Shown here: positions 856-23,519 of the stretch, piece after piece
How the letters are laid out: the number at the start of each line of letters is the position of its first letter
Numbering within the stretch: position 1 is the stretch's first letter
Source: a virus
Length of the DNA stretch: 23,899 nucleotides
Direction: 5' to 3' (one strand)
IMG/VR virus record: IMGVR_UViG_3300021959_000384
Span: 1 to 23,899 of that record
Made by a program: the position numbers and the translations under genes
The notes under the pieces: model-generated
Databases searched by the model: none
Told to the model about the DNA's origin: nothing
Seen by the model: the letters and a program-made list of their open reading frames with translations, nothing else

Positions 856-1503
856 TCAGAAGGGAACATCTTCTTCTGCACCAGTCGGTGTGCCTCCGGT
901 CGGAGCACCTGCAGGTACATCCACAGACATGATGCTGGACCCTTTGAAGGTTTTGCTGAACTTGTTGAGGATGTCCTGTGCATCTGGTGCCGTGGAGGCA
1001 GACTTGCTGACCGGAGGCAGATCTGTGATCGACTGGGCAAAGTATTTGACGATCTTCTTGGGGTAACTCTTCCCGTTGTCGAGCTTCTTGTGCATCACAG
1101 CACCCGTCTTCTTGTCAGTCAGGTTGCGGATGCCAATGGCAAACTGCTTTCCTTCCAGAATCGGATTGTAGGAACTCTTGTCATCAGTGATCTTATGGTT
1201 CGGGCAACCAGAGAAGACACAGATCTGCTTCAGGTGATCGTGTCCGAGTCCAACAGCCCAGAAATCCTTTTCTTTGTGAGAGACAGTGTACCAGGTGCGG
1301 AATTGACCTTCTCCGCACTGGAACTCCACCTTGATCTGTTGCTGAAGAAACTTGCCCTGATCATCGGTCTCTTCCGGCAGTACCTCCAACTCTGCAACAC
1401 TGACCAGGTAGTTGCCCTCATCTAAAATAGGTCCATTGCCATTGCCAGAACCTCCTGCTGAACGGAGTTCGACCTGACCAGCATCAAAGATTACGCGACT
1501 CAT
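856..1503 (-). CDS. DUF669-like single-stranded DNA-binding protein
   Basis: This 215-residue protein opens with SRVIFDAGQVELR, then has a glycine/asparagine-rich loop and the segment ILDEGNYLVSVAELEV. A core with FRTWYTVSHKEKDFWAVG, LKQICVFSG and GKQFAIGIRN follows, and the tail is acidic and ends DVPF. The order of an early beta-strand pair, aromatic-rich OB-like strands and an acidic, aromatic-ended tail matches phage DUF669 proteins, which bind single-stranded DNA next to Sak-type recombinases. An acidic tail ending in Pro-Phe is also typical of bacterial SSB proteins, where it recruits partners. The start overlaps the Sak4-like stop (ATGA), so the two are probably translationally coupled. 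The family is an inference from motifs and neighbourhood. Confidence 0.7.
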   Translation of the reverse strand: MSRVIFDAGQVELRSAGGSGNGNGPILDEGNYLVSVAELEVLPEETDDQGKFLQQQIKVEFQCGEGQFRTWYTVSHKEKDFWAVGLGHDHLKQICVFSGCPNHKITDDKSSYNPILEGKQFAIGIRNLTDKKTGAVMHKKLDNGKSYPKKIVKYFAQSITDLPPVSKSASTAPDAQDILNKFSKTFKGSSIMSVDVPAGAPTGGTPTGAEEDVPF

Positions 1504-2225
1504 AGTGCTAACTCCTTGGCAAGCATTTCATAATTGACAGGCTTAATCCCATCCCCGTTGTACCCAAAACGATTCTTGGCAACATAGTGGGCACCCTCAT
1601 TGATCAGCAGCACCCGTTCTCCATCGGTGCTGAGTAGTTCCTTCTGCCCTTGCCTGCGGACCATGGTTTCCAGAATCAGGAACCCCACACACTCAGCCCA
1701 CTCCACACACTTTGCAGCAGCCCGTTTGTGCAGTTTGACATCCCAACGGTCGTATTCGGTGAGCATCGGGTCAAAGATCCGTTTCTGTTCGCAGTGTGCC
1801 AGGAGCACCACATTCATCCCCCGTTGATCGCAGAGATAGGTACAACCTGCCAAGAACTGGGGCCACTCCTGTGAGCTCGTCTCCACATATCCTCTGCCAT
1901 ACCCTGGAGTCTCAATGCTGGGCACTTCCAGACGAGCGCAGGTAGCCTCCCAGACCTTCGGTTCCAACCAGTCAATCGTGTCAATGACCAAGGTCTGATA
2001 ATCGTGTTCTTCCTTGGCAAGTCGTCGCAACCAGTCCATCACAGTGCTGAACTTCTCCTTCCGTAGATCCACCCGATCCACATCCAAACGTCCGGTGCTG
2101 CCCTCAATGTCTAGGATCAAGGGATTTGGGAATGATGCTGCCAGTGTAGACTTCCCCACTCCTGGAATGCCGTAAATTAAGGCCTTCAGTGGGGTTTTCA
2201 GTTTCCCTGAGCTGATTCCTTCCAT
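1500..2225 (-). CDS. Sak4-like RecA-fold ATPase (phage single-strand annealing/recombination)
   Basis: The 241-residue protein has a Walker A motif, GIPGVGKST, at residues about 19-27. A Walker B-like strand, TLVIDTIDWLE, lies near residues 77-87, and a later strand NVVLLAHCE resembles the motif-3 strand of RecA-fold ATPases. Size and motif spacing match the Sak4/AAA_24 recombinases of phages, which work with a dedicated SSB. The SSB-like gene immediately follows with a 4-base overlap. GAGG five bases before the ATG supports this start. It probably promotes strand annealing or exchange during replication and genome repair. A plain AAA ATPase of another role is less likely given the neighbour. 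Confidence 0.82.
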   Translation of the reverse strand: MEGISSGKLKTPLKALIYGIPGVGKSTLAASFPNPLILDIEGSTGRLDVDRVDLRKEKFSTVMDWLRRLAKEEHDYQTLVIDTIDWLEPKVWEATCARLEVPSIETPGYGRGYVETSSQEWPQFLAGCTYLCDQRGMNVVLLAHCEQKRIFDPMLTEYDRWDVKLHKRAAAKCVEWAECVGFLILETMVRRQGQKELLSTDGERVLLINEGAHYVAKNRFGYNGDGIKPVNYEMLAKELAL

Positions 2226-2338: not shown

Positions 2339-2747
2339 TAGATGCGCTTGAATTAGTGATTGGTATTCTCTCTACATATTTTTTAATGTAAGAATTTTCA
2401 TTTTCTGCTGCGTAACGTGCAGCAAGCAAAAAATTTTTCTTCATTATTTCAATTTGTTGACTGCGCCAACGTAAATGATGACTATTTTGTTGGTCAGTAC
2501 AAAAACGTTTTAATTGCGTTAAAGATTGATCCTCTGGGTCAAAACCTATTTCATTTTCAAATGCTGTACGACTAAAGATCGAATCAGCAATTAGTTTTGG
2601 AAGATCTCGAACAGCACAAAAGAAACAAATAAAAACGTCTTTTCCTCCTTGAAAATTCCAATAGGCATCTGCTGGTCGTTGACAAGAATCACACTTTGCG
2701 TCCTTGCCAAAAGACCCAAAAGGGGCATTTTTAGAAATTATTCCCAT
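2322..2747 (-). CDS. Hypothetical zinc-ribbon-like protein, AT-rich gene
   Basis: The protein is 141 residues from the ATG at 2747. AAGG six bases upstream favours this ATG over the adjacent one at 2750. Residues 19-22 (CDSC) and 41-44 (CFFC) form two CxxC pairs about 20 residues apart, as in a small zinc ribbon. The rest is charged and helical with no motif I know. The start lies inside the last codons of the HNH gene, so it is probably coupled to it. The DNA is visibly richer in A and T than the genes on either side, which suggests separate acquisition. Longer upstream starts would run into the HNH coding sequence and are unlikely. Function unknown. Confidence 0.65.
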   Translation of the reverse strand: MGIISKNAPFGSFGKDAKCDSCQRPADAYWNFQGGKDVFICFFCAVRDLPKLIADSIFSRTAFENEIGFDPEDQSLTQLKRFCTDQQNSHHLRWRSQQIEIMKKNFLLAARYAAENENSYIKKYVERIPITNSSASNEISN

Positions 2748-3150
2748 CATTAACCTTAAAACTAGAATGTCGGTTGTAGGTCCTGCGCCAGTGAACCATC
2801 TTGTGGCACCCAGTGCAGAGAGTCTGCAGGTTCTCAGGGGCATCACTGCCTCCATGCTGAACCTCCAGAACATGATGGATCTCCAGAGTGTCTGGCAGCA
2901 CCAGATCCTCTTTCATGCTGAGACACATCTCGCAGTAGTCTTTGCAGAAACGATTGCGGAGATCCGCCTGACCCTTGCGTGACTTCTTCTCCTTCGGTTT
3001 GCCTTCCCACTTCATGAAACGCCCACAATCCTCACAGGTCACTTTGCAGTAGTGCCCACCAGGATGAGGACCGTAGTCACGACTCAGGTTTTCGTGATCA
3101 CAGTCTTGAGTCCAAGCAACTGTTTCTGCGTCAAATAATATTTTTGCCAT
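2731..3150 (-). CDS. HNH endonuclease
   Basis: The protein is 139 residues. The C-terminal half carries the HNH fold: CEMC at 73-76, LEIHHVLEVQHGG with the His pair at 92-93, ENLQTLC with Asn 107, and CTGCH at 112-116, so the nuclease is of the type with two CxxC zinc-binding pairs. The N-terminal half has further cysteines (C35, C39, C42 in CKVTCEDC) and a lysine-rich linker, plausibly a DNA-binding finger. AGGAG six bases upstream supports the start. It could be a free-standing homing endonuclease, a packaging-associated nuclease or an early recombination nuclease; its place far from terminase genes argues against packaging. Whether it acts on the intron-bearing capsid gene cannot be told from sequence. 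Confidence 0.85.
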   Translation of the reverse strand: MAKILFDAETVAWTQDCDHENLSRDYGPHPGGHYCKVTCEDCGRFMKWEGKPKEKKSRKGQADLRNRFCKDYCEMCLSMKEDLVLPDTLEIHHVLEVQHGGSDAPENLQTLCTGCHKMVHWRRTYNRHSSFKVNDGNNF

Positions 3151-3270: not shown

Positions 3271-3376
3271 GACGACACAACGTCGGAGAGACCTGATAGC
3301 GTGGATGCGTCTCTCGATTTGCAGTCTTTTCACTGGTCTCTACCAGTCGCACGACATGCGACTGATGCAGATCAGT
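3271..3376. other. Hairpin-rich intergenic region (possible structured RNA or origin)
   Basis: Lying in a gap of about 350 bases without a convincing gene (3151-3499), this stretch holds a chain of perfect inverted repeats: GACG/CGTC (3271-3274 with 3281-3284), GAGAGAC/GTCTCTC (3286-3292 with 3309-3315), ACTGGT/ACCAGT (3332-3337 with 3342-3347), CAGTCGCA/TGCGACTG (3344-3351 with 3357-3364) and ACTGAT/ATCAGT (3361-3366 with 3371-3376). The eight-pair hairpin shares bases with the ones on either side, so two folds exclude each other. I recognise no known RNA family. The position inside the early operon, before the HNH gene, would suit a regulatory RNA, a replication origin or an attenuator. Confidence 0.5.
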
Positions 3377-3435
3377 GGGTTGGGAGGTGCTGAGATCGTA
3401 GGGGGAGAAAACGCGAAAAACCCCGTATTGATTAG

Positions 3436-3485
3436 GTGGTACATGAATGTAGCGGAATTTTTTTAGGGAGGACTCCGCTCACCAC
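3436..3485. other. Nested inverted repeat upstream of the hairpin array
   Basis: GTGGT at 3436-3440 pairs with ACCAC at 3481-3485, and AGCGG at 3451-3455 pairs with CCGCT at 3475-3479. A short ACAT/ATGT stem (3441-3444 with 3447-3450) sits inside the left arm. On the minus strand this lies just after the stop of the seven-finger gene, so it could be a 3' RNA structure, but no T-run follows it in that direction and it is not a standard terminator. Confidence 0.35.
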
Positions 3486-3499
3486 TTTGCCCAGCACCG

Positions 3500-4609
3500 T
3501 TAAATTTCTAATTCCAGTAACTCCTCTTCATCTTCATTGATGGTCGATCCAACTGCCCAAATCGGGTGCAGATACTTGGTGATCGTCTTCCCCTTCTTCA
3601 GATAGGCCCAGATTTCCTTGGCATATGCCGTGTCTGGAGGACAATCTCGGACCTGAATCGATGAGTCGTCCCATTTCTTCTGCAGTTGAACCTGGTTCTT
3701 CTGTCCCTTCTCCAACTCATCAATTTTCTCCTGCCGTTTGGCAACTCGATACCCACCTTGGCACTTGTGGGAACAGAACTTTGCCATCGACTTGCGGGTC
3801 TTTGGCATGAACTCCTCCTTACAGTGCAGACAAACCTTGGGACGAATCGGAGAATTCTGGGTTGCCAGTCGTCCACGTTCTCTCTGGGCATCACTGTTAC
3901 AAGATGCGGAACAATAAACGTGTCTGCTATGCTTCTGCTCAAAATGGAAATTACAACTTTTGCACTTAACAACTTTCTTTTTCGGTTCCCCTCTTACTTT
4001 CCAATTATTCCACTGCGCCCTCTGCCTCCTTGCCTCATCAAAACAGTCAGCACTGCAGTATTTCTGATGACTGTTGACCTTCGTGTATTCCTCCCCACAA
4101 TGCAGACAGCCCACAATCTGGGGAGGTTTGCGAGGGTTCGATTCCCAGCATTTTCGACCACAGAATCGATGACTCAGAGTCTTCGGTTTGAACATCTCCC
4201 CGCAGGTCTCGCAGGGTTTCGGAGGTCGATCTTTTAGATACAACCCCAACCTTGCTCTCTCTAACTTCGACTGATAACTGCACTCAGCACTGCAGGTGAT
4301 GGAGCGAGGACTCCCGTAAAATTCCTTCTTGCAGACGACACAATTCTTTGGCGGATACTTTCTCCCAATCCTTCTGTTCCTCCATTTGCGACTGCATTCC
4401 TCACTGCAGGTTTTTGCTCGTCGATCTGCCTGGAATATTTCTTTGCAGACGATGCACGGTTTAGGATTGACCGACCGATACTTCAGTTTTTCCTGCTCTA
4501 GTTTGTATTCTCTGCTGCAGATCTCCCCGCAGGTTTTCTGTCGTGCCACCAAGGGGATGTACTTGAGTCCGCACATCAGACAGATCCGAGGGTCCTTCCA
4601 ATGACTCAC
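3500..4609 (-). CDS. Protein with seven tandem C4 zinc fingers
   Basis: The 369-residue protein starts with GTG, overlapping the upstream stop (GTGA). Seven copies of C-x2-C-x(12-15)-C-x3-C follow: C10/13/27/31, C52/55/68/72, C90/93/106/110, C133/136/150/154, C168/171/185/189, C216/219/233/237 and C260/263/279/283. Most third cysteines sit in a (K/R)xC(S/G)xxC setting. Linkers are strongly basic, and a final segment of about 85 residues is charged with an acidic end. Single fingers of this kind occur in phage nucleases and DNA-binding proteins. Seven in a row without an attached enzyme domain suggests a modular nucleic-acid binder or a zinc-dependent scaffold. I know no named family with this architecture, so the function is unknown. 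Confidence 0.85.
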   Translation of the reverse strand: MSHWKDPRICLMCGLKYIPLVARQKTCGEICSREYKLEQEKLKYRSVNPKPCIVCKEIFQADRRAKTCSEECSRKWRNRRIGRKYPPKNCVVCKKEFYGSPRSITCSAECSYQSKLERARLGLYLKDRPPKPCETCGEMFKPKTLSHRFCGRKCWESNPRKPPQIVGCLHCGEEYTKVNSHQKYCSADCFDEARRQRAQWNNWKVRGEPKKKVVKCKSCNFHFEQKHSRHVYCSASCNSDAQRERGRLATQNSPIRPKVCLHCKEEFMPKTRKSMAKFCSHKCQGGYRVAKRQEKIDELEKGQKNQVQLQKKWDDSSIQVRDCPPDTAYAKEIWAYLKKGKTITKYLHPIWAVGSTINEDEEELLELEI

Positions 4610-4791
4610 TCTTTCTTCTCCTTCCGATCCTCATCCCATTCCCAAAATCCGCAGGCGTGCAAGGGTGCTTCATCTGCCCCAGTCACTCCACACATTCCCC
4701 AGATATAACTGCTGGGAAGTCGGAAGTTCCCCGCAGTCCGGTAGTGCCGACAGTTGCGACATAACCTATTTCCAGTATGCGGGTAGCTCAT
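4606..4791 (-). CDS. Small cysteine-containing hypothetical protein, 61 aa
   Basis: The protein has cysteines at 11, 14, 34 and 47 (CRNC, MCG, ACGFWEW), consistent with a single zinc site, and a charged C-terminal tail ending EDRKEKKE. The frame overlaps its neighbours by four bases on both sides (ATGA upstream, GTGA downstream), which strongly supports it as a real member of the operon. The CRNCRHYR... CGFWEW pattern is reminiscent of small phage zinc-binding proteins, but I cannot assign a family. Confidence 0.7.
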   Translation of the reverse strand: MSYPHTGNRLCRNCRHYRTAGNFRLPSSYIWGMCGVTGADEAPLHACGFWEWDEDRKEKKE

Positions 4792-5803: not shown

Positions 5804-5983
5804 TTAGTCCGCCATTTCTGACATCTGGCGGATCTGTTGGTTAATGCGACTCTCCTCCAACTTGCGGAGAGCGCGAACGGCAGCAATTTCAGTGTCTGCT
5901 GCCACCTGACGGGAGATGATCTGCATCATCTCCTTGATTTCTTTTAGGTCAGATCTGATCTCATCAAGTTCAATGTCGGTCAT
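5804..5983 (-). CDS. Small coiled-coil protein, 59 aa
   Basis: The frame from the ATG at 5983 gives MTDIELDEIRSDLKEIKEMM and continues as an almost uninterrupted helix with heptad-like Leu/Ile/Met spacing (residues about 4-55). GAGG seven bases upstream supports the start, and the ATGA overlap with the MerR-like gene shows coupling. It probably forms an oligomer. Function unknown; a partner for the neighbouring DNA-binding protein is possible. Confidence 0.65.
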   Translation of the reverse strand: MTDIELDEIRSDLKEIKEMMQIISRQVAADTEIAAVRALRKLEESRINQQIRQMSEMAD

Positions 5984-6243: not shown

Positions 6244-6645
6244 ATGGACAAGTCCAAGCAACTCTTTGAAATCACTAAACAAAAATTTGGATTACGTTTT
6301 GATCGTGAACTTGCAGATTTGCTTGGGATAAAAAAATCAACTCTGTCACAGAAAATTTCTCGTGCAGATTTTCCTTTTTTTCAAATTCGGCAGTTACTTG
6401 CTGAACGAGGTTTAGCAAGCGATTGGCTAGACGATTATGAGGGGAAAATGAAACCAGATTCATCGAATAACATGAATCCAGATGCAGCCAGACTGAGGGA
6501 TAAAGATCAGATCATTCAGATTCAAAAGGAGTATATAGAGACCTTAAAAGAACAGATTGAGGTCCTGAAGGATGAACACAAAAAAAAATGGAATCCGGCA
6601 ATCGCACCACAATGGATCAATCGACCAAGCAATTTGACGATATAG
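6244..6645 (+). CDS. CI-like phage repressor with coiled-coil C-terminus
   Basis: This 133-residue protein has a helix-turn-helix at about residues 19-40 (DRELADLLGIKKSTLSQKIS), as in phage CI repressor N-terminal domains (Phage_CI_repr type). A linker follows, then a predicted coiled coil at about 80-114 (DQIIQIQKEYIETLKEQIEV). There is no S24 peptidase or RecA-cleavable domain, so induction by self-cleavage is unlikely; oligomerisation by the coiled coil probably replaces it. It is transcribed opposite to the early operon, toward the integrase. It probably keeps lysogeny by binding the palindromes at 6165-6194. AT content is higher than in the structural genes. Confidence 0.8.
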   Translation: MDKSKQLFEITKQKFGLRFDRELADLLGIKKSTLSQKISRADFPFFQIRQLLAERGLASDWLDDYEGKMKPDSSNNMNPDAARLRDKDQIIQIQKEYIETLKEQIEVLKDEHKKKWNPAIAPQWINRPSNLTI

Positions 6646-6733: not shown

Positions 6734-6753
6734 ATATTTGTTTAATCAAATAT
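6734..6753 (+). promoter_or_regulatory. Inverted repeat covering the integrase start codon
   Basis: ATATTTG (6734-6740) and CAAATAT (6747-6753) form a perfect seven-base inverted repeat around TTTAAT and include the first two bases of the integrase ATG. No Shine-Dalgarno sequence precedes this start. The repeat could be a protein-binding site or an RNA hairpin that limits integrase translation. Confidence 0.45.
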
Positions 6754-7813
6754 GATCCGCAAAGATATAGTCTACGACAGAACGAACAGGGTATTTACTG
6801 CGAACTTTCGATTCGACGGAAAACGCCACAGACCCACCCTGATCAGCAAGGATGACTACGACCAACTCACCGAGGAAGAAAGGGAGCAGGTAGTTGGGAC
6901 CCTCTGGAGGAAAGCAAAGGATCGATTTGACCGACTGGTGGCGGAGGGAGAACGACACGGACAGTACCTAGAACCACTGCTGGAGGAGTGGCTTGCCTCG
7001 GTTGCCTCTGCACGAGACTCCAAGACCGTGGATCACTACAGACTAGACCTTCAAAGATTCCTTCACGTTGCTCCCCCAAGAACAGGACAACTCTCCTCCA
7101 GGGTCCAGGAACCCTTCTACGATCACCTCCGCAGTCTCGGCCTGTCCGATTCCTCCATCAATTCTGCAGTGCGATCTGTTCGGGTATTCGTCAAGTGGTT
7201 GGCAGAACGAGAACTGCTGAAGCACCCAGTGACCTTGAAGGCGTTGCGAACCGTCAAGAAACGTCCGCAGTTCTACAGTGCAGAACAGATCAGCCAGATG
7301 CTGGACTACTGCAGGGAGACACCAGGCAGGAGATATACATTATTATATAGGTGTATCTGGATCTTGAGTCAGACCGGAATGCGGGGAGGGGAACTGTTGA
7401 ATCTAAAATGGTCAGAGGTCGAGGAGAGACGGATCAAGATCGTCAGCACTGACCAATGGCAAGTAAAGAGTCGCAGAGATGCTTGGGTTCCCGTGTCGCC
7501 AAAATTACAGCAAGAATGGAATCAGTGGGAGAAAACAGGAGAGACCTGGGTGCTGGATAAAGGGGATGGCAAGAGGTACTGGGCACATCTCAATGAGTTG
7601 ACTGCCAGCATGAGATTTGTTCAGACCAAATGCGACTGCAGAGGTCCGAAACCGTTGCATGGATTTAGAGCTGGAGTGGCAACGGAATTATTGAGACAGG
7701 GTGCTAGTCCGGTGCATGTGCAGAGACTGTTGCGTCATGAGGATCTGAGTACGACGATGGGATACTTAGATCCAGATGCTCTGGAGATCGAAAATCTGGT
7801 GAGAAACCTATGA
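6752..7813 (+). CDS. int: Tyrosine-family phage integrase
   Basis: The 353-residue protein has the tyrosine recombinase catalytic set: Arg 211 in TGMRGGELLNL, Lys 239 in the beta-hairpin, His 303 and Arg 306 in LHGFRAGVATELL, His 329 in LLRHEDLSTTMGYL, and the nucleophile Tyr 338. An N-terminal core-binding domain lies near residues 75-155. The length is normal for phage integrases. It catalyses recombination between attP and a bacterial tRNA gene, and the attP core lies 45 bases after its stop. The ATG at 6752 has no Shine-Dalgarno sequence and sits in an inverted repeat. All catalytic residues are present, so it should be active. Confidence 0.95.
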   Translation: MIRKDIVYDRTNRVFTANFRFDGKRHRPTLISKDDYDQLTEEEREQVVGTLWRKAKDRFDRLVAEGERHGQYLEPLLEEWLASVASARDSKTVDHYRLDLQRFLHVAPPRTGQLSSRVQEPFYDHLRSLGLSDSSINSAVRSVRVFVKWLAERELLKHPVTLKALRTVKKRPQFYSAEQISQMLDYCRETPGRRYTLLYRCIWILSQTGMRGGELLNLKWSEVEERRIKIVSTDQWQVKSRRDAWVPVSPKLQQEWNQWEKTGETWVLDKGDGKRYWAHLNELTASMRFVQTKCDCRGPKPLHGFRAGVATELLRQGASPVHVQRLLRHEDLSTTMGYLDPDALEIENLVRNL

Positions 7814-7974
7814 TCTCCAAAGGGAGTTATCGACAAATCGAAAATTCCCGCCAGGCGTGCGCCCATCAGGACTTGAACCTGAAACCTACTGATTAGAAGT
7901 CAGATAGAAATTATTATTTATTCTATAATATCAGTAATTTGCAAGATTGAGAATGGTCAGTAAAGACAAGGTTG
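7787..7974. other. attP flanks with possible integrase arm sites
   Basis: The 9-mer ATCGAAAAT occurs at 7787-7795 and 7837-7845, with a related ATCGACAAAT between 7829 and 7838. On the other side of the core an AT-rich inverted repeat ATAGAA/TTCTAT spans 7905-7926, and TATCAGTAATTTG near 7929 is one base off an IHF consensus. These are candidate arm-type and bending sites. No terminator is evident for either the integrase or the converging late operon. Confidence 0.35.
7858..7905 (-). other. attP core: 3' half of tRNA-Arg(UCU)
   Basis: On the minus strand the sequence reads as a tRNA from the anticodon stem to the discriminator base: an anticodon stem-loop CTGA-CTTCTAA-TCAG with anticodon TCT, a variable region, a T-arm TCAGG-TTCAAGT-CCTGA, and the 3' acceptor strand TGGGCGC followed by A. 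The 5' half (acceptor 5' strand and D-arm) is absent; the DNA turns AT-rich immediately beyond. This is the classic identity segment of a phage that integrates into a tRNA gene and restores its 3' end. It lies 45 bases downstream of the integrase gene. Confidence 0.88.
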
Positions 7975-22306: not shown

Positions 22307-23519
22307 TTAGGAAGTGGTCAGATCAAAGATCCCACCATGAGCCGCTTCCTGTGTCATCTCCAGACCCATCTCGACCACCAAGTGCTTGGTCTCCGCGTCA
22401 CTGGTCTTTCCGAGGGTACTTACCTGGAAATTTCTCAAGTAGGAAACCTTCGCAAATTCGGGCGATATGAGAAATGCGTCCCGCTCACGCTGGAAGCGAT
22501 TTGGCATCACCTGGAGGTCTCCAAAGTCGGTCGCAAACACGGTTACGTTTGATCCCGCCGTGTTGGAATCAATCATCTCACGGGCGATAGATCGTCCGGT
22601 CAATGTACTGACAACCGTTTTGTTGAAAGGTCCGACCATCAAGCGATCTGGCTCACCACCCTCGGTGTAACACGATTGCATCACGGTATTGATCAATGAG
22701 GCAGTCAATGCTCGTTGAGCCGAGGAGTCGGTTCGGGCAGTTGATCCAACTGTCACCGGATCGGCACCGGACGTGGCATCGAAACTGGTGTTGGTGTCCA
22801 ACCAGGCACCAATCATTGCGGAGGTTCGCGCAGTCGTTGCGTTACCTGTGGCTTTGGCCTGGTTGCTCAACAGTGCCGCTTCGACAGAACGTTTCAATTC
22901 CTTGGTTCTGCGAGCCATCTGGTGAGCCATTTGCGATGTCTTCAATATGTTCAATCAGGTTCGCTACTCCCTGACCCGTCCCTTTCGGGACTGCTACCTG
23001 TCCCCAGGCAGTTCAGACTATATCTTCACCCGATCAGGGTGCTCCGCACTTCCACTCGCTTGAGTGTACGCCTTTCGGCTAGTCGTTGAACCTTCCCATT
23101 TCTGGGCTTGGCTGCTGATTGTCCGGTCTGGACTTCCCAGCAATTCACGGAGTTTTTCATAACTAGTTCCCTAGTTAAGCGGCAAGTCGTTCACCGTAGA
23201 GCTTGATCGCAGACTGGGTTCCTGTCACAGCTACTGCCCGACTCATGATCTGGCAGACGTTGCTGTTTCGGGTGGTCAGGCTTGCCGCAGCAGCACTGAT
23301 GGCATCCCCTTCCAGGTCTGTCGTTGTGCTGGTCGCACTGAGTTCTTCTGTGATCCACTCGAATACAGTGTTGGAAACATTTCGTGTTCCTACACTGTTG
23401 ACGAATGGGGTCTCGGTTGGGGAGATGTTATAAACAATCTCTTTGATATCAATTACATCCTCTTCCGTGCCTGACGTTTTGATGTCGTAGGACGTAGAGG
23501 CATTCGTTAGAAGTGCCAT
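22307..23519 (-). CDS. Major capsid protein (SU10/DUF5309-type), split by a group I intron
   Basis: Exon 1 is 23519-23193 (109 codons) and exon 2 is 22942-22307 (211 codons plus stop), giving a 320-residue product after removal of 250 nt. The joined protein follows the DUF5309 capsid order: VIYNISPTETPFVNSVG-like start (residues 29-44; here EIVYNISPTETPF), a middle QIMSRAVAVTGTQSAIKLYG, then across the junction KTSQMAHQMARRTKELKRSV, and a C-terminal domain. Without splicing, exon 1 reads five more codons to a TAA at 23177-23175. GGAG nine bases before the ATG supports the start. The gene lies after a scaffold-like gene, as expected. The length is normal for the family only if spliced. Confidence 0.88.
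22943..23192 (-). ncRNA. Group I intron (IA-like), ORF-less, 250 nt
   Basis: Numbering n from the 5' splice site, position is 23193 minus n. P1: exon CGGU plus GA pairs with UUGCCG (8-13), with U-G at the splice site. P10: exon-2 AAG pairs with CUU (7-9). P2: UAACUAG/CUAGUUA (16-33). P3: CUCCG (41-45)/CGGAG (147-151). P4: UUGCUG/CAGCAG. P5: GUCC/GGAC. P6: CCCA-GAAA-UGGG. P7: GUUCAACGACUA (102-113) with UAGUCUGAAC (173-182). P7.1 and P7.2: GCC-GAAA-GGC and CACUC/GAGUG (114-140). P8: CACCC/GGGUG. S element: AAGAUAUAGUC (167-177). P9 hairpins follow, and the intron ends in G. P7.1/P7.2 point to subgroup IA, usual in phages. No homing endonuclease is coded inside. Confidence 0.93.

Follow-up and report, generated by a model that had tools for sequence, protein, structure and literature searches.

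A conserved seven-finger array protein with no recognisable nuclease domain, and two structured non-coding elements after its stop codon, in an uncultured temperate phage

The locus and its setting

IMGVR_UViG_3300021959_000384 is a 23.9-kb viral record from an uncultured temperate phage. Its full length (23,899 nt) was analysed and is referred to below as the window. The plus strand carries an integrase gene (positions 6752–7813) and a CI-like repressor gene (6244–6645). The minus strand carries an early operon, Sak4-like recombination genes and virion genes. One virion protein matches Octadecabacter Antarctic DB virus 2 with 35% identity, and because of this match a marine alphaproteobacterium is a reasonable guess for the host.

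The subject of this analysis is a gene for a tandem finger array. It is part of the early operon, is read in the opposite direction to the CI-like repressor and the integrase, and lies just before the recombination/replication module. The features of the locus are:

4606..4791, minus, conserved 61-aa Cys-containing open reading frame, 4-nt overlap with the array start
3500..4609 (4609 to 3500), minus, finger-array gene, 369 aa, GTG start
3503..3760, minus, constant C-terminal tail of the array protein, 86 residues (284–369), following finger 7, without a known domain
3386..3498, minus, RNA-A, structured non-coding element, beginning 1 nt past the array stop codon
3171..3377, minus, RNA-B, structured non-coding element of about 200 nt, 59 pairs, 17 with two-sided changes
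2731..3150, minus, optional HNH endonuclease gene, 139 aa, directly after RNA-B
1500..2225, minus, Sak4-like recombination ATPase, part of the exchangeable downstream module

The GTG start is preceded by AGGAGAAGAAAGAGTG and overlaps the stop codon of the upstream 61-aa open reading frame (GTGA). Past the array stop codon, structured non-coding DNA extends over about 330 nt. Together, the array gene and the RNA pair form a junction: the genes upstream of it are conserved, and the modules downstream vary among relatives (Sak4; a 230/207/567-aa set; a 189/164/208/759-aa set).

The finger array and its conservation

The array protein displays seven fingers of the pattern C-x2-C-x(12-15)-C-x3-C. 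The first-pass annotation had placed a seven-finger protein at 3500–4609, and both the coordinates and the seven motifs are correct. The central spacers of fingers 1–7 are 13, 12, 12, 13, 13, 13 and 15 residues long. The fingers are:

4517..4582, minus, finger 1, residues 10–31
4394..4456, minus, finger 2, residues 52–72
4280..4342, minus, finger 3, residues 90–110
4148..4213, minus, finger 4, residues 133–154
4043..4108, minus, finger 5, residues 168–189
3899..3964, minus, finger 6, residues 216–237
3761..3832, minus, finger 7, residues 260–283, constant in all relatives

A chance origin of the motifs was ruled out by shuffling the protein sequence 20,000 times, which gave a mean of 0.06 motifs and a maximum of 3, against the 7 observed. 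Residues 1–300 contain 68 K/R and 31 D/E, and the linkers are basic, as described earlier.

Array relatives were found in nine viral contigs. Seven of them (L002, L003, L004, L005, L006, L008 and L009) have a complete gene of this type, in each case with the full set of seven fingers, and these proteins are 76%–91% identical. Of the other two, L007/L010 is cut within the gene and L025 has a different finger set, described below. In the alignment of array relatives, 28 of 28 ligand cysteines are invariant, which is consistent with predicted zinc binding and goes no further than that. Where dS is unsaturated, dN/dS is mostly 0.05–0.15 in fingers 1–6, finger 7 and the tail; a single stretch of 32 codons stands out with a value of 0.49. 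By these sequence comparisons, the array gene is under purifying selection.

The viral scan, in which some searches were seeded by the array itself, yielded no relative without the array and no empty site among the nine contigs. A protein-pattern search of bacterial genomes found no relatives. Because all array relatives are close kin, inference for the family as a whole is thin.

In one 38.4-kb record, IMGVR_UViG_3300034418_006209 (L007/L010), both contig ends fall inside the array gene and the overlapping copies are non-identical. Probably the genome is circular and sequences of two strains were joined in its assembly.

Relationship to the fingers of phage nucleases

The best family match of the array is PHROG 1271 (HNH endonuclease), with an E-value of 1.4e-29 and the best stretch at residues 84–201. 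The same family also matches the neighbouring HNH gene, there via the nuclease part. Pfam and NCBIfam gave no model above cut-off for the array protein, and PDB chains gave no sequence match. NinG (PF05766), a protein of lambdoid phages, scored 20.9 bits, below its gathering score of 25.4. The likeness is between one finger of the array (residues 161–200) and the first 40 positions of the NinG model, and the remainder of NinG is absent.

Three annotated phage proteins illustrate the relationship. Gaia gp136 of a Mycobacterium phage combines five fingers of the same type with an HNH domain in one protein, and aligns with array residues 99–300 (27% identity). GAL1_80 of a Gordonia phage has three such fingers and an HNH domain. 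ChaylaJr gp95 has four, joined to a C-terminal domain of another kind, whose annotation is Holliday junction resolvase (a putative nuclease). The array shares with PHROG 1271 proteins the tandem C-x2-C-x(n)-C-x3-C fingers and the basic linkers. However, those proteins have 3–5 fingers and a C-terminal nuclease-type domain, whereas the array has seven (four in one relative, L025) and a tail without a recognisable enzyme.

A search of a viral structure library gave 72 matches at E ≤ 0.001. Many are HNH proteins, and some carry names that do not refer to a nuclease. In view of these matches, the PHROG 1271 result and the annotated fusions, the earlier statement that arrays of this kind are very unusual in phages is not supported.

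The AlphaFold model of the array has a pLDDT of 67.7 and a pTM of 0.26. It displays repeated units of a beta-hairpin and a helix, with the second Cys pair carried at the helix start. The predicted secondary structure fits the features of FCS/YacG-type treble clefs (zinc knuckle, beta-hairpin, helix with the second Cys pair), but the structural matches to this type reach Z-scores of only 2.2–4.1. Individual modelled fingers match YacG (4tma, Z 4.1; 1lv3, Z 2.7) and FCS fingers (2w0t, Z 3.6; 2l8e, Z 2.2), all low values. FCS/YacG-type proteins have one such finger each. HIT fingers and ribosomal and chromatin proteins are also among the structural matches, at Z below 5; the best Z overall is 4.5, and the fold matches are weak. 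CTCF-like matches of the full model were rejected, as they share only a "string of fingers" appearance at TM-scores of about 0.1.

By the PHROG 1271 match and the Gaia, GAL1 and ChaylaJr fusions, this finger type is common in phage nucleases. The fingers as such are therefore of a known type, while for the nuclease-free version no described role was found.

The C-terminal tail

The nuclease domain expected of a PHROG 1271 fusion or of a free-standing homing endonuclease was not detected in the array protein. Pfam, PHROGs, NCBIfam and PADLOC detected no enzyme domain, in line with the first-pass annotation. A nuclease hidden in the tail was considered, and searches of the tail by itself against Pfam and PHROGs gave nothing convincing; a tblastn search of the tail against annotated phages gave matches at chance level. 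In the predicted structure of the tail, finger 7 is followed by a long helix, then a short one, and the acidic end is of low confidence; the long helix and the acidic end are also seen when the tail is modelled alone.

Exchange of the N-terminal finger block

L025, which comes from the same source metagenome as L008, has four fingers in total. Its first three are at most 28%–47% identical to any finger of the window. By contrast, its finger 7 and tail are 89% identical to those of the window over 99 aligned residues. The upstream 61-aa open reading frame and RNA-A/B are also retained. The exchanged segment is:

3862..4604, minus, block swapped in L025, about residues 1–249, with a 3-finger replacement that has no detectable DNA similarity

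In a blastn comparison, DNA similarity between L025 and the window ends at about 4604 and restarts at about 3862, and both flanks show 78%–85% DNA identity. These breaks indicate that residues 1–249 were replaced in one piece, with homologous DNA on either side.

A comparable process has been described for T5orf172 homing endonucleases, whose tandem Zn-finger arrays recombine and swap, and CapR, a transcriptional repressor, is built from fingers related to these arrays (PMC10448857). The single case of L025 fits this modular exchange of other phage finger arrays (PMC10448857). The likeness consists of tandem modular Zn fingers in phages, domain swapping, and a nuclease-free relative that acts as a repressor. 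The finger type (CxxC...CxC) and the nuclease family are different, however, and no homology is claimed.

RNA-A and RNA-B

Both elements are conserved in all array relatives, and their distribution is exactly that of the nine viral contigs carrying the array. In RNA-B, 97% of the alignment cells are paired, with a sharp loss on sliding, and 17 of 59 pairs show two-sided changes (0 of 500 shuffles). These values come from seven related sequences whose cells are not independent events, and the same alignment served to build the structure, a bias that raises the percentage paired and, to a lesser extent, the two-sided changes. By its covariation, RNA-B is a real structured RNA. RNA-A has 3 pairs with two-sided changes (5 of 500 shuffles); its structure is likely, though less certain than that of RNA-B.

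Neither element has a match in Rfam, and neither was found in annotated phages. A microRNA match at this locus was discarded, being on the opposite strand and far below its gathering score. A group I intron was also rejected; Rfam places one elsewhere in the window and none here. A DNA pattern of RNA-A gave three matches in bacterial genomes, which look like chance and are not accompanied by the remainder of the element.

L012 has an HTH-type open reading frame (positions 1363–1970 of that contig) between RNA-A and RNA-B, and because this frame splits them the two elements are separable.

The 12-mer TGATCTGCATCA occurs exactly at window positions 3363–3374 (the 5′ end of RNA-B) and again at 5917–5928 (inside a 59-aa early open reading frame). 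The second copy lies within a longer palindrome; it is retained in L014 and L019, and L018 has one mismatch. Within RNA-B (window 3341–3172), an invariant AGAGACCAG can pair either with an upstream CTGATCT stretch or with an invariant CTGGTCTCT at the 3′ end. Because of these alternative partners, two mutually exclusive folds are possible.

Possible functions of the array

The features that distinguish this array from described ones are the lack of a nuclease together with a conserved 86-residue tail, the block swap in L025 and the two conserved non-coding elements after the stop codon. Most of what is known of finger arrays in phages concerns nucleases of which they form part. A conserved version free of a recognisable nuclease, with a swappable recognition block, therefore offers a natural test of nucleic-acid reading by fingers and of modular specificity.

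The earlier proposal that the array reads a long nucleic-acid site is still the best reading. The form preferred here, which may have nearly an even chance of being right, is that of a nuclease-free DNA-recognition array of the homing-endonuclease type, acting early as a sequence-specific DNA-binding regulator. The protein would be related to the regions by which phage HNH (homing-type) endonucleases recognise DNA with tandem fingers. Its seven FCS/YacG-like treble-clef fingers, with basic helices and linkers between them, would follow one another along an extended DNA site like beads on a string. Produced from the early operon, it would act as a regulator or a roadblock, and its specificity would be altered by exchange of the N-terminal finger block. 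The constant finger 7 and tail would perform a task shared by all members, e.g. contact with a partner.

What the sequence itself shows is the fingers and their conservation, purifying selection, the place of the gene in the operon, the block swap, and a protein in which no nuclease can be recognised. DNA recognition is suggested by the PHROG 1271 match, the nuclease fusions, the hairpin-helix model, the lack of an enzyme domain and the swap in L025. A regulatory role is suggested by the homology of the fingers to nuclease-fused ones, together with the CapR precedent. Several points count against this reading. RNA and protein are also bound by treble clefs of the FCS-like kind, and the array gene abuts an RNA that is conserved and structured. 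The precedent has fingers of another type (CapR/DUF723), the fold matches and model scores are low, and only close kin are available. No target site for the array was found.

The array may instead bind RNA-A and/or RNA-B, either autoregulating its own transcript or forming an RNA-protein complex that governs read-through into the replication module. The adjacency of RNA-A to the stop codon, the identical distribution of the array and both elements, their two-sided pairs and the lack of an Rfam match are consistent with this, and constant RNA accompanies a constant finger 7 and tail, including in L025. However, in L025 the first six fingers were replaced by three others with RNA-A/B nearly unchanged, so no clear fit between the variable fingers and these elements is apparent. 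Co-occurrence within close relatives is weak evidence, and the frame in L012 separates RNA-A from RNA-B. This function is rather unlikely. A combination, in which array and RNA act as one unit with finger 7 and the tail on RNA-A/RNA-B and the exchangeable N-terminal fingers on a variable target, is improbable; if true, it would be a phage RNA-protein complex whose specificity is altered by finger-block swaps.

The array could also be the targeting subunit of a two-gene endonuclease. The parts of a Gaia-type fusion would then be split over two genes, the second being the HNH gene, which lies about 350 nt downstream in the same orientation. Gaia and GAL1 join the same fingers and an HNH domain in one protein. 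However, the HNH gene is limited to the window lineage and L008/L017, and the other array carriers have no HNH gene at this position. It is therefore not an obligate partner and behaves as an optional insertion after RNA-B. This makes a split endonuclease quite improbable.

Equally doubtful is a role in counter-defence or host take-over, in which the array would target a protein of the host or of a rival phage, compare YacG on DNA gyrase. The early operon position, the likeness of single fingers to YacG and the modular N-terminus would suit such a role; however, PADLOC gave no match, the YacG-like fold is common to many DNA-, RNA- and protein-binding fingers, and a protein-binding knuckle needs fewer than seven basic fingers.

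RNA-B lies between the array gene and an exchangeable replication/recombination module, and with this position a part played by it in the control of early phage genes can be tested directly.

Other elements in the window

A group I intron is located at 22994–23202 on the minus strand (Rfam RF00028, 89.2 bits, E-value = 6.7e-22). It splits the major head protein gene into segments at 23175–23519 and 22307–22954, both of which match PHROG 1328, and has no internal endonuclease open reading frame. Over 74 nt, it shares 93% identity with non-coding DNA of Streptococcus phage Str-PAP-1.

A tRNA-like remnant is found at 7864–7927 (minus strand), directly after the integrase gene, with a score of 28.1 bits, slightly below the gathering score. 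Its anticodon loop resembles CTTCTAA, as in tRNA-Arg(TCT). The remnant is possibly the phage attachment site.
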